33,493 nucleotides of DNA from IMG/VR virus record IMGVR_UViG_3300042868_001855, positions 1 through 33,493 of that record; one strand, written 5' to 3'. A model generated the notes under the pieces. The model did no database searches, was not told where the DNA came from, and saw only the letters and a program-made list of their open reading frames with translations. Shown here one piece after another: positions 6,211-16,988 of the stretch (its first letter is position 1; every line of letters begins with the position of its first letter). A program made the position numbers and the translations under genes. The DNA comes from a virus.

Positions 6211-6391
6211 ATAACGATTCCTTTTCAATTACGGGGGGTTGAATTACAAGGCGGTCAGAATTGAACGCTTGCACTATTTCACGCAAGACATCGGACGGTT
6301 TACCGTACCTATCTGCCTTTCGATGAAATGTTTTGTGATCGCTAGGCGTGAGCCTAACGGTCAAAAATTTGGTGAGTGGTTTGGTTGCCAT
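6194..6391 (-). CDS. Small ribbon-helix-helix-like DNA-binding protein
   Basis: First gene of the leftward replication operon, 65 aa. Residues 9-44 (FLTVRLTPSDHKTFHRKADR, then a Gly turn, then SDVLREIVQAF) follow the ribbon-helix-helix pattern: a short beta strand with alternating exposed residues, helix A, a turn and helix B. RHH proteins bind short palindromes as dimers and often repress their own operon. A palindrome lies inside the promoter just upstream (6422-6438). The start has AGGA at a suitable distance (CAGGAAAATAAATT before ATG). Autorepression is inferred from the position. Confidence 0.7.
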   Translation of the reverse strand: MATKPLTKFLTVRLTPSDHKTFHRKADRYGKPSDVLREIVQAFNSDRLVIQPPVIEKESLYVIGK

Positions 6392-6418
6392 AATTTATTT
6401 TCCTGAACGGTTGCACAA

Positions 6419-6448
6419 AGTGTAGCACAGTGTGGTACGATTGTACAA
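6419..6448 (-). promoter_or_regulatory. Sigma70-like promoter of the replication operon
   Basis: On the minus strand: -35 TTGTAC (6443-6448), an 18-bp spacer, -10 TACACT (6419-6424). The predicted transcript start lies about 20 bases before the RHH gene ATG, leaving just enough room for its SD. Confidence 0.6.
6422..6438. promoter_or_regulatory. Palindromic operator candidate in the promoter spacer
   Basis: GTAGCACAGTGTGGTAC is a dyad of the form GTA.CACA.TGTG.TAC, symmetric except at two positions and the centre. It fills the spacer and touches the -10 of the leftward promoter. It is flanked by TTGCACAA (6411-6418) and the perfect palindrome TTGTACAA (6441-6448), so up to three related sites may be present. 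The adjacent RHH protein is the obvious candidate ligand. Confidence 0.55.
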
Positions 6449-6479
6449 CAGTTTGTAAATAAATTTTTAGCAAAGAAAA

Positions 6480-6501
6480 GCCCCGGTGATTAGACCGGGG
6501 C
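6480..6501 (-). terminator. GC-rich hairpin, terminator-like on the minus strand
   Basis: An 8-bp stem GCCCCGGT/ACCGGGGC with a 6-base loop. On the minus strand it is followed by CTTTTCTTT, so it would stop leftward read-through before the replication promoter. On the plus strand it sits in the 5' leader of the primase-helicase transcript, just before its SD. Confidence 0.55.
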
Positions 6502-6519
6502 TAAAAGGAGTGGCAATTC

Positions 6520-6561
6520 ATGAAACAAATGACAACTGCATTGTCAGAAACGATTATATGA
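6520..6561 (+). CDS. 13-codon leader ORF coupled to the primase-helicase
   Basis: Encodes MKQMTTALSETII. It has the best SD in the vicinity (AAGGAG, 6505-6510, nine bases before its ATG) and its TGA overlaps the primase-helicase ATG as ATGA. The primase-helicase start itself has no good SD, so this mini-ORF probably delivers ribosomes to it by termination-reinitiation. Conservation in relatives is not known to me. Confidence 0.5.
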   Translation: MKQMTTALSETII

Positions 6562-9032
6562 GCACAGCACCGCAAGTACAACAACATCCTGCATCTGTTG
6601 ATGCATATATCCGACACGGTTGGTCACTCGTGCCCATTCCCGCTGGCACAAAAGGCCCCCGCACACCTGGTTGGAACCTTAAACCTAATGCTCTCAAGGC
6701 ACAGGGTGACTTGCCTCAGGGCTTTGGTATTGGCTTGGCCCACGCTTACTCGGGCACGATGGCTTTGGACATTGATGAGTGGGATAGCACCACCGTAGCA
6801 CTTAAGCTACATGGGATCGATCTTCAAGAGTTGTATGATGCAAATGATGCTGTCATCGTGGACTCGGGCAGGGCTGGTCACGGGAAACTTTTGTTTACGA
6901 TGCCTTTTGGCCTTACGCTGCCGTCTAAAAAGATCCTGATCAATGGCGTGACAGCATACGAGTTGCGCTGTGCTACGGCCAACAACCTCACGGTGCAGGA
7001 TGTCTTGCCTCCATCTATTCACCCCGAGACACAACAGCCCTACCGCTGGGCAGGTAAGGGTCACTGGACACGTTTGCCCGTGCTCCCACAGCCTTTACTT
7101 GACCTGTGGCAAGGTTTGCTGGCGCAGGACAAAGAGCGAACCATTGGTACAGGTGAGTCAATCGATGCCTCATGGGAAGACATCCGCACGGCCCTAGAAG
7201 CCATAAACCCTGATTGCTCCCGCGATGAGTGGGTCACAGTGGGCATGGCGCTTAAGTGGGCAGGCGAACAGACAGACCAGCTAGAACCTGCGCTGACGCT
7301 TTGGAACGATTGGTCAATGCCCTCTGCCAAGTACCCTGGAGAAGGTCAAATCGTTGCTCAGTGGATGAGTTTTCGCAATGACAAGGCGACTGCGGTTAAG
7401 TTAGGATCGCTGTTTCACATAGCCAAGCAACACGGATGGGTGCGCCCTATGCCTGACATTTCCACAATGTTCGCTCAAGTGGAGTCACCCGCTGACCCAA
7501 AGTCAGTCATCGTTGACCTGCGGCCAAGGCCACCGATGATGGATGTTTCTTTGTGGCCAGCCGTCATTGCTAGACGTGCAAACGAGATCGGCCAAACTGT
7601 TGGCTGTGATCCTTTAGTACCTTTGTTCGCAGGGCTTGCCGCGGTATGTGGTGTAGTCGATGCCCGTACACGGTTGGAACTTATAAAAGACTTTAAGGTT
7701 CCCCCAGTGCTGTGGCTAATGACCATTGGTGCGCCAGCAGACAAGAAGACACCAGGCTCTGCGCCTATGTTGGCTCCCTTGAAGCACCTTGAAATTGAAG
7801 ACAGACCGCGGTTTAGAAAAGAGATGCTCGACTGGGAAGGGCAGGAGGCCATGTTCGCATCAAGCAAAAAGGCCTTCCTTGATTTCTCAGCATCACCCGA
7901 GGCGCTGATGGACACCAGTCAAGCACCGTCAGTGTTTGAATTGCCACCACAACCCGTACCCCTTCGCATTACAGTGGATGACGTGACCAGTCAGAAACTG
8001 GTGCGCTTGGCAGCCGACCGTCCCCGTGGTTTGCTTTGTGCCTTAGACGAGATGAATAGCTGGGTGCGCAAACTTACCGACAAGGCCAGTGGTGAAGATC
8101 GATCCGCATGGGTCAAGGCTTATGAGTCATCCAGCTACGAAATGGATCGCGTGGGTAGTGGATCGATCTATGCTGAAAATTTGGCGGTGTCGATTTATGG
8201 CAACATCCAACCTCGTGTGTTTCGTGAAAACTTGCACAACCTTTCAGCAGATGGTCTGGTTCAGCGTTTTGTGCCTTGCATCTTAAACGGTGATTTGACC
8301 AAGAAGCCCATCGAAATACCCGATTACCTGCTGAACAAAGATCAGTGGGAACAGACTTTGCGCATCGTGTTTGCCCTGCCTGCCATGACTTACCAGTTGA
8401 GTCCAAAAGCCAAAACTGCGTACCAAGCGTTTCAAGACTGGTACGACAGCAAGCGCAACGATGAGCGCCTCTTGCAATCTGACGATACGTTCATGACGGC
8501 CTTCGGTAAGTTGGAAGGCTTAACAGGCCGTTTGATTCTTATGTTCCACCTGATCGAGTCACCCTTCAGTATGGCAGTCAGTGCAGAGCTGACCCAGCGG
8601 GTGATTCAGTTGGTTCAATCTTATGTTGTGCCTGCGTATCGGTATGCCTTGGCGGAACTGAGCGGCTCGTCCAACTTCGACACATGGCTGCGTGACTACA
8701 TCATTCAGCACGCCGATGAGTCAACAATTACCATGGCTGAGATTAAGCGGTCAGCACGCCGTCAGATTGAAAAGGTCAACGTGTGGCAACAAGACCAAAT
8801 GATCTACGGCGCGATGTATCCACTGGAGCAGGGCAGGTGGGTTATGCGAATGGATGACGGCACACGGGAGAACCAGCACCATGCTCAGTGGGCTATCAAC
8901 CCTGCGCTGGCTGTGCAGTTTAAGGATCACCGCAAAGCGGTCATCGATGCCAAGCAGCGCCAGCTTGATGAGATTTACAGGCTGTCCAGAAAAGAAAAAC
9001 CCCGAGTACACGGGGCTGAGTTGCTGGATTGA
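6558..9032 (+). CDS. Primase-helicase (prim-pol, PriCT-2, DUF3987-like)
   Basis: Multidomain replication protein of 824 aa. The N-terminal prim-pol-type primase domain covers roughly residues 15-185: GWSLVPIPAGTKGPRTPGW, then GFGIGLAH, then ALDIDEWD with the catalytic acidic pair, then SGRAGHGKLLF. A PriCT-2-like region follows (WEDIRTALEAINPDCSRDEW to FHIAKQHGW, about 200-305). The C-terminal half resembles DUF3987 helicase-like ATPases, with a degenerate P-loop (IGAPADKKTPGS) and a Walker B-like LLCALDEMNSWVRKL. It would prime and unwind phage DNA. I start it at 6558; the longer in-frame GTG start at 6486 lies inside a hairpin without an SD. It is divergent from the rest of the replication module and ends at a terminator. 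Confidence 0.88.
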   Translation: MSTAPQVQQHPASVDAYIRHGWSLVPIPAGTKGPRTPGWNLKPNALKAQGDLPQGFGIGLAHAYSGTMALDIDEWDSTTVALKLHGIDLQELYDANDAVIVDSGRAGHGKLLFTMPFGLTLPSKKILINGVTAYELRCATANNLTVQDVLPPSIHPETQQPYRWAGKGHWTRLPVLPQPLLDLWQGLLAQDKERTIGTGESIDASWEDIRTALEAINPDCSRDEWVTVGMALKWAGEQTDQLEPALTLWNDWSMPSAKYPGEGQIVAQWMSFRNDKATAVKLGSLFHIAKQHGWVRPMPDISTMFAQVESPADPKSVIVDLRPRPPMMDVSLWPAVIARRANEIGQTVGCDPLVPLFAGLAAVCGVVDARTRLELIKDFKVPPVLWLMTIGAPADKKTPGSAPMLAPLKHLEIEDRPRFRKEMLDWEGQEAMFASSKKAFLDFSASPEALMDTSQAPSVFELPPQPVPLRITVDDVTSQKLVRLAADRPRGLLCALDEMNSWVRKLTDKASGEDRSAWVKAYESSSYEMDRVGSGSIYAENLAVSIYGNIQPRVFRENLHNLSADGLVQRFVPCILNGDLTKKPIEIPDYLLNKDQWEQTLRIVFALPAMTYQLSPKAKTAYQAFQDWYDSKRNDERLLQSDDTFMTAFGKLEGLTGRLILMFHLIESPFSMAVSAELTQRVIQLVQSYVVPAYRYALAELSGSSNFDTWLRDYIIQHADESTITMAEIKRSARRQIEKVNVWQQDQMIYGAMYPLEQGRWVMRMDDGTRENQHHAQWAINPALAVQFKDHRKAVIDAKQRQLDEIYRLSRKEKPRVHGAELLD

Positions 9033-9826: not shown

Positions 9827-9905
9827 GGTTGGATTCCTTAGTCAATAGTTCGATGGCTTAACCGGCTATCGACTGGTTGGGAGCTTTAGTCAATTGTTTC
9901 GATGG
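9799..9905. repeat. Three degenerate copies of a 30-bp direct repeat
   Basis: Copies at 9799-9828, 9827-9856 and 9875-9905 share the plus-strand pattern GGTTGG, then six to seven variable bases, TTA(G/A)TCAAT(A/T)GTT and ATGG at the end. They cover the end of the HTH gene, the gap, and the start of the 43-aa ORF, including its SD and ATG. Confidence 0.75.
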
Positions 9906-10148
9906 TCGTCCCGCGCCCCGTGTGGGGGCGGCATCCGGCGGCGTGAGTGCGGCCAGCACGTTCGGGGCCAGCGCTTCGAGCGTACCCAGCACGGCCAGCA
10001 GCTGCACGGCGGCGGCGCTCGGCGCTCGTTGGCCAGCGGCCCACTTGCGGAAAGTGAAAACGGGAACACCCAGCAGGCCAGCGGCCCGGTGCTCGCTCAG
10101 TGCCAGGCGATCAGTGAAGGCCAGCAGGTCGGTTTTGAATTGTGTCAT
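9858..10148 (-). CDS. Small helix-turn-helix (XRE-like) regulator
   Basis: A 96-aa protein. Residues 3-60 hold a helical HTH pattern: TDLLAFTDRLALSEHRAAGLLG, then VPVFTFRKWAAGQRAPSAAA with the recognition helix, then VQLLAVLGTLEAL. This resembles XRE-type or transposon-associated HTH domains that read a site through a FRKW helix. The tail is Pro/Ala-rich and basic. I start at ATG 10148; upstream in-frame codons run through a terminator hairpin and are not credible. The gene lies just downstream of that terminator, so it may be expressed only by read-through. It is a candidate ligand of the repeated sites in the control region, by inference. Confidence 0.68.
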   Translation of the reverse strand: MTQFKTDLLAFTDRLALSEHRAAGLLGVPVFTFRKWAAGQRAPSAAAVQLLAVLGTLEALAPNVLAALTPPDAAPTRGAGRPSKQLTKAPNQSIAG

Positions 10149-10893: not shown

Positions 10894-11574
10894 TTAACCT
10901 TTCAAAATAGGGATCACGCGCCTGGCCAGCGCATCAGTTACCCGGGCACGCGATCCATGGGCACGAAACCCAATGATCACGCGGCGATCAGCTCGAGCGC
11001 AAAGCCCGCAAGTCGCGCAGGTAATATCGTCGCGGGTTTGTGCTGGGCATACGATAATTGTCCGGCCCTCTGGGGTTTCCGTCTTCTCCGGCGTATCCAT
11101 GGGCACAATGCAGGTGAGCGGCGCACGCGATACGGCGGCCAGCGCGTCGGCCTCTCCAGCATCGTCGGCGCTCAGGTTCACCGTAAAGCCCCAGTCATTC
11201 GCGCACTGTACCCAGTACAAAGCCTCAGGGCTTTTTTTGTGGGTGTACGTAAAGCCCCGGCGGCCAGTGTTCGCGGCCACAATTTCCCCCAGGGCGGCGG
11301 CGTCTACATCCTCACCGGCCCCAGGCAGATCCCCGGCCACGTTGAAGCGCCATAACTGGCCAGCGGGCAGGGCTTCGATTGACGCGCACAATTCACCCAG
11401 TGAACCGCCTCGCTGCGCTACTCGATCCCAGCTCATGCGGGTATAGTAGTCTTCGGCGTAGCAGTCAGCGCGATAATGCGGGCAGCTTTGAGGGCAGGTT
11501 TCCCGCTGGGAATAAGTCACCGGCAGCGGGCCGGTTTTGCTATTGGCCGATTTCAAAATAAAATGATATTTCAT
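10894..11574 (-). CDS. DUF7227-like cysteine-rich protein
   Basis: The largest gene of the accessory operon, 226 aa. It has an N-terminal cysteine set (C27, C31, C38 in ETCPQSCPHYRADCYAE), a middle part with repeated beta-alpha units (WRFNVAGDLPG, GFTYTHKKS, WGFTVNLSADDAGEADAL, LTCIVPMD) and a C-terminal cluster C176, C186, C189, C192 ending in VIIGFRAHG. I recognise this layout from phage proteins now called DUF7227. The paired Cys clusters and barrel-like repeats suggest a metal or Fe-S cofactor, possibly radical-SAM-related, but the N-terminal spacing (Cx3Cx6C) is not the classical Cx3Cx2C. The start overlaps the upstream stop by 4 bp, with AAGGGGG as SD. Confidence 0.72.
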   Translation of the reverse strand: MKYHFILKSANSKTGPLPVTYSQRETCPQSCPHYRADCYAEDYYTRMSWDRVAQRGGSLGELCASIEALPAGQLWRFNVAGDLPGAGEDVDAAALGEIVAANTGRRGFTYTHKKSPEALYWVQCANDWGFTVNLSADDAGEADALAAVSRAPLTCIVPMDTPEKTETPEGRTIIVCPAQTRDDITCATCGLCARADRRVIIGFRAHGSRARVTDALARRVIPILKG

Positions 11575-12771: not shown

Positions 12772-12972
12772 TCACTCTCCCACGTACATCAAGCAGCCAT
12801 TGCGCATTGTCAGCTCACCGCTGCTGCCTGCGCCTAGATCCTTGATCAGTGCGAGGATCTCGCCTTGGGTGCGCTTGCTGCCTGCACGGTGAATAATAGC
12901 CACGGTGCGCAACAGTGCGCTTCTACCGTGGGGCTTTGCTCTCTCGATCTGGGCTTGTTCAAATTTCGTCAT
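12772..12972 (-). CDS. First gene of the accessory operon, 66-aa hypothetical
   Basis: MTKFEQAQIERAKPHGRSAL, then LRTVAIIHRAGSKRTQGEILALIKDLG, then SGELTMRNGCLMYVGE. The central helix-turn-helix-like section could bind nucleic acid, but this is not a clear match to any family. The start carries leader-repeat copy 1 with CTGGAG as SD, about 54 bases downstream of a near-consensus promoter. Confidence 0.62.
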   Translation of the reverse strand: MTKFEQAQIERAKPHGRSALLRTVAIIHRAGSKRTQGEILALIKDLGAGSSGELTMRNGCLMYVGE

Positions 12973-12995
12973 AATGATTTCTCCAGGTTACAGTT
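12973..12995 (-). repeat. Leader repeat, copy 1
   Basis: On the minus strand: AACTGTAACCTGGAGAAATC then ATT before the ATG at 12972. It shares GTAACC and TGGAGAA with the copies before three other genes of the operon. Confidence 0.7.
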
Positions 12996-13032
12996 ACAAA
13001 TTACGGGGCCGGTTTTGTGTGCCGGTGAATGA

Positions 13033-13060
13033 ATTATAACCCAGCGGGTTAGCTTGTCAA
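13033..13060 (-). promoter_or_regulatory. Near-consensus sigma70 promoter of the accessory operon
   Basis: On the minus strand TTGACA (13055-13060), a 16-bp spacer, and TATAAT (13033-13038). Both hexamers are perfect consensus. The spacer is almost entirely filled by the palindrome AACCCGCTGGGTT, so a bound protein would block RNA polymerase. Confidence 0.85.
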
Positions 13061-13596
13061 CACTATTTGAGAAAATATTTACTCAGTGCTTACCCTTACC
13101 CTCTGGGTTTTCCTGCTTCTACTGGTGCGTCACTTGTGACTTACAGAGAAATAAGAGTTTTTAGGATTCCTGATTTCTTGTGCTCTTTTAAAAAGTCTAT
13201 ATCGACCCCCTCGCCTGCGCGATGTCACAAGTGGCGCACTGGCTACCGATCCCGCAAACCCGTGCACCCGCTGGGTTATTCCCTCACCCGCTGGGTTTCC
13301 GTGCCCATGGCCAGCGATCCCGTGCATCCGCTGGGTTTTGTGGCCACTGATTCACCCGCTGGGTGCACATGGCCGCATCGATTCACCGGCGGCGGCCTGC
13401 GCCAGCGATCCCGCGGCGGCCTGCGACACAATGGCCGGCGATGGCCAGCGCCAGCAATCTTGCGGCGCAAAGCAAGATCCGTGCCAGTTGCGCAATGGGG
13501 CCGGGTAGGGCCGGAGGCCGAAGGGGCCCAGACTGGGAGGTATCACGAACAATTTTTTATTTTTCAAAGAACCCGTTAACCAGTTACCCAATGGGT
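13038..13596. repeat. Seven ACCC-N3-GGGT palindromes (operator/iteron array)
   Basis: Sites at 13039-13049 (ACCCAGCGGGT, in the leftward promoter spacer), 13098-13108 (centre TCT), 13266-13276, 13286-13296 and 13354-13364 (all centre GCT), 13326-13336 (ATCCGCTGGGT, one mismatch) and 13586-13596 (centre AAT, 15 bp before the rightward -35). Start-to-start spacings in the central cluster are 20, 40 and 28 bp. The longer unit CGTGCA(C/T)CCGCTGGGTT occurs twice, exactly 60 bp apart. Confidence 0.85.
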
Positions 13597-13611
13597 TCCG
13601 CTAACCTACAG
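13061..13611. other. Non-coding control region between divergent operons
   Basis: No credible gene. It contains the palindrome array, the inverted-repeat pair, an AT-rich section near 13060-13085 and 13140-13205, a weak rightward promoter candidate (TTCTTG-17-TATATC, 13175-13203), a GC-rich stretch with repeated GCGGCGGCCTGCG (13388-13430) and a second AT-rich patch at 13550-13568. Repeats plus AT-rich DNA would suit an operator complex, a replication origin, or both. Confidence 0.7.
13122..13242. repeat. 19-bp imperfect inverted repeat pair flanking an AT-rich spacer
   Basis: The arm at 13122-13140 ends GCGTCACTTGTGAC; its reverse complement recurs at 13224-13242 with 16 of 19 bases matching. 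The left arm itself contains the palindrome GTCAC-TT-GTGAC. The 83-bp spacer is AT-rich with A and T runs. Confidence 0.65.
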
Positions 13612-13640
13612 TTGCACAAACTCAAACCTCCCGCTAGAAT
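13612..13640 (+). promoter_or_regulatory. Rightward promoter for the virion operon
   Basis: TTGCAC (13612-13617), a 17-bp spacer, TAGAAT (13635-13640). Predicted initiation falls only a few bases before the terS ATG at 13651, so this transcript would be nearly leaderless. Confidence 0.65.
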
Positions 13641-13650
13641 CCGTGACACT

Positions 13651-14202
13651 ATGGAATCATTAAATCTCGATCCTGTAGGCGCAAATGTCACAATGACCAG
13701 CGACAACAAAATCGAACTACCAGACTGGTTAGACCCTGCGCCTCGCACGCTTGCCAAATCACCCCCTGCGGTGAAGTCATTGGTATTGGCTCAGTATGAG
13801 CATGTATTTATGCGAGTCATCGATGAGGTTGCCCACGGCAAGTCCTTGTCGCAAGTGCTCAATGATGACCAGCGGCACATCGACTACAACGACTTTTACC
13901 GGTGGATCAAAAAAGACCCAACCCGTAAACAGTTGTTTGATGAAGCCCAAGAGATGCGCACTGAGTTTATGGCCGGCGAGATCATTGAGATTGCCGATGC
14001 GGATGACACACTCGAAGATGTGAATCGTAGTAGGCTCAAAATCGACACACGCAAGTGGCTCATGGGTGCGCACAACCGTAAGAAGTACGGAGCGACCACT
14101 AACATTGAGATGAGTGGTGGGATCTCAATACTGGCTGCGCTTGAAGCAGCTAACGCTCGGGTGATTGACTTGGCCGATGTAACCGATGTGCAGGAGAAGT
14201 AA
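13651..14202 (+). CDS. Terminase small subunit
   Basis: A 183-aa protein preceding the large terminase with a 1-bp overlap. It has a helical DNA-binding N-terminal half (VFMRVIDEVAHGKSLSQVLN, then DYNDFYRWIKKDPTRKQLFD), a central oligomerising helix (AQEMRTEFMAGEIIEIADAD), and RLKIDTRKWLMGAHNRKKYG, a pattern typical of phage small terminases that recognise the packaging site. I start at ATG 13651, downstream of the promoter; ATG 13693 is an alternative since neither has a clear SD. Longer readings upstream run through operator repeats and are rejected. Confidence 0.85.
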   Translation: MESLNLDPVGANVTMTSDNKIELPDWLDPAPRTLAKSPPAVKSLVLAQYEHVFMRVIDEVAHGKSLSQVLNDDQRHIDYNDFYRWIKKDPTRKQLFDEAQEMRTEFMAGEIIEIADADDTLEDVNRSRLKIDTRKWLMGAHNRKKYGATTNIEMSGGISILAALEAANARVIDLADVTDVQEK

Positions 14203-16754: not shown

Positions 16755-16988
16755 ATGAAAGCCTTGCAAGATTGCATCATCATTGAGCGCGATGTTGAAA
16801 AGCATCCTTTGTTTGTATTGCCGCAGACTGAGAAGTTAGGCACTGGGATTGCTGTTGCCATTGGCCCAAAATGCCTAGACATCAAGATTGGTGACCATGT
16901 ATACTTCGATGTAGGGCAAGAATTTAAGCAAGATGGCAAAGATTATGTCGTCATGCGTGAGCCTCACATTTTAGGGGTTTTGGAATGA
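16755..16988 (+). CDS. GroES-like co-chaperonin (Cpn10 fold)
   Basis: A 77-aa protein whose order of elements matches GroES: MKALQDCIIIERD at the N-terminus, then a shortened loop, then KLGTGIAVAIGPK, then DIKIGDHVYFD, then DGKDYVVMREPHILGVLE, which parallels the GroES ending with ...M.E.DILA.VE. It is about 20 residues shorter than cellular GroES (95-97), mainly because the mobile-loop and roof regions are reduced; PLFVLPQTEKL occupies the mobile-loop position. Phage co-chaperonins adapt host GroEL for capsid folding. It lies directly before the portal, which it overlaps by 4 bp. The fold call is strong; GroEL binding is inferred. Confidence 0.8.
   Translation: MKALQDCIIIERDVEKHPLFVLPQTEKLGTGIAVAIGPKCLDIKIGDHVYFDVGQEFKQDGKDYVVMREPHILGVLE

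Follow-up and report, generated by a model that had tools for sequence, protein, structure and literature searches.

What reads an array of short palindromes lying between two divergent phage promoters, and what would its binding do to each of them? The question is raised by the 33,493-nt virus record IMGVR_UViG_3300042868_001855, analysed here over its whole length (the window), which by gene content is a podovirus-like phage. Left of the array lie replication genes, i.e. those for an SNF2-like helicase, a polymerase, a gp2.5-like protein, an exonuclease and a prim-pol, and right of it the terminase, P22-like portal, scaffold and capsid genes. We consider it probable that the palindromes are the operators of a one-protein switch, in which a 96-aa helix-turn-helix (HTH) regulator would repress the leftward promoter and most likely activate that of terS, the terminase small subunit gene. 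From the array, its conservation, its positions in the two promoters, its phasing and the covariation of operator and recognition helix, all of them features of the sequence, we infer binding, dimerisation, repression at the left and, at the right, activation rather than contact-dependent repression.

Organisation of the array

Seven sites, P1 to P7, lie between 13039 and 13596, in the region from a leftward promoter of consensus sequence to the terS promoter (Table 1; promoters were assigned by consensus). Six of them are exact ACCC-N3-GGGT palindromes, and the other deviates at one position. The original prediction of a seven-copy array thus stands as to the number of sites, but one of them (13326) is imperfect and only six are perfect. 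The start-to-start spacings of 20, 40 and 28 given for the central cluster P3-P6 are correct, and both the near-consensus leftward promoter with a palindrome in its spacer and the palindrome 15 bp upstream of the rightward -35 were borne out. In 100 shuffles exact copies averaged 0.23 and never exceeded 2, as compared to 8 in the window itself. Two of these lie outside the array and inside genes, at 8592 (prim-pol) and 17565 (portal), and look incidental. Among relatives the spacing of neighbouring sites is irregular with weak periodicity only (R 0.24), so that regular spacing was rejected. No Rfam match was obtained in 12900-13750, and no phage paper with ACCCGCTGGGT was found in the literature searched. 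Between P2 and the central sites there is a second inverted repeat, present as GTCACTTGTGAC (exact) and GTCACAAGTGGC (one mismatch) at 13129-13140 and 13224-13235, which is possibly the site of another regulator; GTCACAA-TGAC-like stretches adjoin P2 in relatives.

Table 1. Positions of the regulator gene, promoters, palindromic sites and adjoining features in the window.
Feature	Position	Strand	Description
HTH (XRE/Cro-C1-like) regulator, 96 aa	9858..10148	-	leftward operon; basic C-terminal tail GAGRPSK; proposed palindrome binder
Leftward promoter	13033..13060	-	TTGACA 13060..13055, 16-bp spacer, TATAAT 13038..13033; 12/12 match; kept in relatives
P1	13039..13049		ACCCAGCGGGT; occupies leftward-promoter spacer, abuts -10
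P2	13098..13108		ACCCTCTGGGT; promoter-proximal end 59 nt upstream of leftward -10
P3	13266..13276		ACCCGCTGGGT; central cluster
P4	13286..13296		ACCCGCTGGGT; central cluster
P5	13326..13336		ATCCGCTGGGT; one mismatch; central cluster
P6	13354..13364		ACCCGCTGGGT; central cluster
A/T-rich tract	13548..13568		AACAATTTTTTATTTTTCAAA; directly upstream of P7; kept in relatives
P7	13586..13596		ACCCAATGGGT; end 38 nt upstream of terS -10
Rightward (late, terS) promoter	13612..13640	+	TTGCAC 13612-13617, 17-bp spacer, TAGAAT 13635-13640
terS, terminase small subunit	13651..14202	+	phrog_1482, E 1.3e-22; opens rightward (structural) operon

Several genes around the array deserve mention in their own right. 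The prim-pol gene (6486-9032, +) runs rightward within the otherwise leftward early region and therefore needs a promoter of its own; the gap preceding it (6391-6486) holds no ACCC-N3-GGGT palindrome. A DUF7227 protein (10894-11574, -; E 2.4e-75) also occurs in array-less relatives such as L044. A gene for a GroES-like co-chaperonin (16755-16988, +) directly precedes the portal gene (phrog_3188) and is found in the same place in the metagenome-assembled phage DSL-LC05, the nearest named record to the window.

Conservation in relatives

Scanning related phage contigs had been proposed as a check. About 70 non-redundant relatives, DSL-LC05 among them, carry the array in the corresponding position, as do most of those TerL relatives (80 fetched) that share TerS too. 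Relative to the start of TerL the copies are found at about -1130, -1090, -940 to -800 and -620. Most relatives have 5-8 perfect ones, with up to 11 palindromes in all, and in an unbiased palindrome count ACCC-3-GGGT is the top motif of the region. Strict conservation of position is confined to the sites placed with respect to the two promoters. Other clades carry different palindromes in the same region, e.g. GCCA-1-TGGC in L033 and L035, and yet others in L055, L076 and L002. The relatives that have neither the HTH protein nor the ACCC array (L076, L055, L002 and L044) show other repeated palindromes in this intergenic region, such as TATTG-1-CAATA in L055 and L076 and GTTTA-2-TAAAC in L002, which suggests other regulators in the same slot. 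Rhodoferax phage P26218 and Vibrio phage VvAW1, cultured phages named as gene-sharing neighbours, contain no ACCC-N3-GGGT.

The array-bearing phages are an uncultured, widespread freshwater family. DSL-LC05 is predicted to be lytic (PMC10611076) and no integrase is named in it. No HTH homologue was detected among 84,980 bacterial and archaeal genomes, i.e. neither hosts nor prophages were found by way of the HTH protein, and the corresponding search with TerL yielded one close match, on a contig of 3.2 kb from a lake MAG. As neither integrase, prophage copies nor the lytic prediction speak for lysogeny, a role of the array in the immunity of a temperate phage is unlikely.

The HTH protein as candidate binder

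The original prediction had named the HTH protein (9858) and the 66-aa protein encoded at 12772 as possible binders, and had proposed an RHH protein for binding assays as well. The last was not identified, and the 66-aa protein, which occurs in 2 loci only, was rejected. Among 14 proteins of the leftward operon compared, the HTH protein alone is present in all array-bearing loci, defined for the TerL-fetched relatives by at least three perfect copies and enough upstream DNA. HTH protein and array are both present in 18 of these relatives and both missing in 13; 11 encode the HTH protein with fewer than three perfect copies and none has the array only. The 11 comprise three loci with GCC arrays, six or seven with degenerate CCC-N3-GGG copies and two without any. 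Degenerate copies of the ACCC-N3-GGGT motif are seen in L024, L026 and L045, and L037 and L039 (HTH helix YAW) have no recognisable array. When loci were fetched by the HTH protein alone, almost every one with sufficient DNA carried the array, and a search made separately with HTH proteins of the RHW/RNW group yielded loci with GCCA-1-TGGC instead.

The recognition helix varies together with the operator. Its position K35 is Lys in 63/63 distinct HTH proteins that accompany CCC arrays, whereas those with His or Asn at this position accompany GCCANTGGC arrays (AGCC-A-N-T-GGCT). The GCC-type sites replace ACCC in the promoter registers: at the left GGCT shares its T with TTGACA, and at the right the distance to the terS -10 is 38 or 26 nt. 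In L033, L023 and similar phages the operator letters thus covary with the recognition helix while TerS is unchanged. As the tree of this short protein lacks resolution, the operator switch may correspond to perhaps only one or two evolutionary events. Co-occurrence and covariation of specificity both support the HTH protein, which is likely to be the binder rather than the 66-aa protein or TerS.

The AlphaFold2 model of the HTH protein (pLDDT 86) consists of five helices and a disordered basic tail and has the five-helix, lambda-repressor-type HTH domain of XRE/Cro-C1 proteins. HTH_3 matches 18/22 family members and HTH_31 17/22 (E up to 0.1; best 2e-6 and 2e-7, respectively); for the collection scan closer subsets were used, the 22-row HTH alignment being too diverse. 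A profile search returned MqsA (3fmy, E 7.7e-6), HigA-2 and P2 C, and Foldseek with the model returned HigA2, MqsA, Aca10, Aca2 and P2 C, all with E > 1e-3 and a probability near 1. The protein is, however, below the cut-offs of the curated MqsA families (PF15731, 17.8 vs 30; TIGR03830, 19.2 vs 61.8), and an identity as MqsA antitoxin was rejected on these scores. Moreover, with 96 aa in total and the HTH starting at residue 3 there is no room for the zinc-binding N-terminal domain of MqsA. An AT-hook-like core (RGR/GRP/GRK) is found in the tail (9858-9930, - in the window) in 55/89 distinct relatives.

Site positions at the two promoters

At the leftward promoter P1 abuts the -10 in 33/33 strictly defined cases (32 at 0 nt, one at 1 nt), and other relatives show two further registers, in which P1 has letters in common with the -35 (TTGACCC or GGGTTGACA). 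As P1 either abuts the -10 or overlaps the -35, a bound dimer should exclude RNA polymerase in every register, and a protein on P1 should thus occlude this promoter. The original expectation that the leftward promoter would be shut by a bound protein is consistent with this overlap or abutment of a core element. In most relatives P2 precedes the leftward -10 by 58-61 nt; as this is mostly one value (~59), the phasing of P2 to the left promoter is weak evidence.

The arrangement at the late promoter differs. Its -35 is weak in relatives, with a mean match of 3.7 of 6 as compared to 5.4 of 6 at the left. P7 always lies upstream of this -35 and never overlaps the core promoter. In 70 non-redundant regions the end of the last palindrome is 26-28, 36-40, 47-48, 57 or 65 nt from the terS -10, the gaps between these classes being empty apart from four misassigned cases. 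The distances are phased at 10.3 bp (Rayleigh R 0.86), a value reached by 0 of 2000 uniform nulls, and the phasing holds with one value per sequence cluster (16 to 45 clusters); the control test omitted the four of the 70 distances for which either the last site or the -10 had been assigned wrongly. The second-last and third-last sites give an R of 0.16 and 0.15, respectively, and a phasing of the central cluster with the late promoter was rejected.

As the helical phasing is specific for P7, it points to a contact with RNA polymerase on a fixed face of the helix by the protein bound there. Together with the weak late -35 this is most simply read as activation of the late promoter by the P7-bound protein. 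The phasing, which the original prediction had missed, suggests activation at the late promoter beyond repression, but it would agree with a polymerase-contacting repressor as well.

The A+T content is 0.78-0.87 at -30 to -11 from P7 and about 0.2-0.3 further upstream, and the A/T tract is present in array-less relatives too. In 39/64 TerL loci the motif GGGTAGGG[CT]C (13503-13512 in the window), followed by the A/T tract, lies between array and terS. The motif is also found in relatives without the array and may, together with the tract, be a packaging site or an origin element.

Alternative explanations

The strongest competitor accepts the HTH protein as binder and has it purely repress both promoters, a damping as by lambda Cro or Aca proteins, with the P7 phasing explained by a bound protein that contacts and holds polymerase or anchors a repression loop. 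The position of P1 would mean occlusion at the left here as well, the proteins of similar HTH fold (HigA2, MqsA, Aca10, Aca2 and P2 C) are mostly autorepressors, and Aca proteins block acr promoters via inverted repeats (PMC9410881). Yet a purely blocking site is expected to overlap its promoter, as P1 does, whereas P7 stays 26-65 nt from the -10, moves in helical steps and leaves the core promoter free. Moreover, the late -35 is weak, as expected for an activated promoter, and the sites adjoining P7 are not phased to the promoter. We thus regard repression alone as unlikely.

The two remaining alternatives take the array out of transcription control. Binding by an initiator to iterons of a replication origin would agree with the repeated sites, the adjacent conserved A/T-rich tract and the early replication genes to the left (prim-pol, DNA polymerase and helicase), but the spacing of the copies is irregular, strictly conserved positions exist only with respect to the two promoters, the candidate binder is akin to regulators rather than initiators, the A/T tract persists in relatives that lack the array, and the GC skew at the array is uninformative, with nothing beyond coding-strand bias. 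Iterons, which had been considered originally, are thus unsupported and very unlikely; both the registers in the promoters and the helical phase relative to the -10 speak for the control of transcription. That TerS binds the palindromes, which would then belong to a pac/cos region next to its gene, is suggested by their location directly upstream of terS and by the conserved GGGTAGGGCC with the A/T tract in between. However, L033, L023 and others have nearly the same TerS although their palindromes became AGCC...GGCT along with the HTH helix, and the palindromes keep to promoter registers and to a helical phase relative to the -10. TerS was rejected as binder because the same TerS occurs in phages with switched operators, and we give this explanation hardly any credence. 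An array of operators serving two divergent promoters is, in contrast, supported.

A model of the proposed switch

In the one-protein switch that we favour, the consensus leftward promoter would fire early in infection and yield the early proteins, including the HTH regulator, whose gene lies about 3 kb downstream of the putative operators within the leftward (early) operon. With rising regulator levels P1 would be occupied by a dimer and polymerase blocked at the leftward promoter, so that the regulator would repress its own gene and shut off the early operon. A dimer on P7, positioned on a fixed face of the helix, would most likely recruit polymerase to the weak terS promoter and turn on the structural operon, and P2 and the central sites P3-P6 probably help cooperative loading or set a threshold. 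An unlikely extension is that the basic tail bridges the operators and the A/T tract beside P7, rendering the array an early-to-late nucleoprotein switch that may even license packaging at GGGTAGGGCC.

If correct, an uncultured and widespread phage group gains a concrete transcription switch for which regulator, operator and two target promoters can be named. The relatives provide a natural experiment, having changed the operator letters along with one residue of the recognition helix, and the displacement of the late-promoter site in whole helical turns only amounts to a classic phasing experiment done by evolution. Activation by polymerase contact is directly testable with short DNA and the 96-aa protein.

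Comparison with known systems

Among phage regulators of similar fold, Aca2 and Aca10 are likewise small HTH proteins encoded in their own operon, with inverted repeats in a strong promoter (PMC9410881), but in our case no acr gene is known, the array reaches a second, divergent promoter and no curated family matches. MqsA belongs to the same HTH superfamily, and its operator, AACCT-N3-AGGTT, is likewise built of two 5-bp arms around a 3-bp centre (PMC4894380), although the arms end in CCC/GGG here and the zinc-binding N-terminal domain is absent from the 96-aa protein. The specificity residue K35 aligns with an Arg of MqsA (RY -> KW), by our own residue count Arg101, which is reported to be important for DNA binding (PMC5422877).

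Lambda OR/OL with CI and Cro, as well as P2 C, also combine an HTH phage regulator, multiple operators and divergent promoters, with one site that blocks and one upstream of a weak promoter. Here, in contrast, there is no evidence of lysogeny, one regulator was found instead of two, and the distance of the putative activating site varies in whole helical turns.

The closest functional analogue may be protein p4 of phage phi29, an early phage protein with several sites between early promoters (A2c/A2b) and a divergent late one (A3). Its sites overlap the early -35 elements, and it is needed at A3, which has a poor -35 and depends on contact with polymerase (PMC3100819). Correspondingly, P1 overlaps or abuts the early promoter in 70 relatives and the HTH gene is part of the leftward operon, and the weak late -35 and the phasing of P7 would fit activation by contact with polymerase. 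The two systems differ in that p4 has its own new DNA-binding motif (PMC3100819), while the present protein has an XRE-like HTH, and in that p4 uses four sites and works with p6, as compared to 5-8 (up to 11) short palindromes here. The likeness, for which we do not claim homology, would thus be one of functional design.
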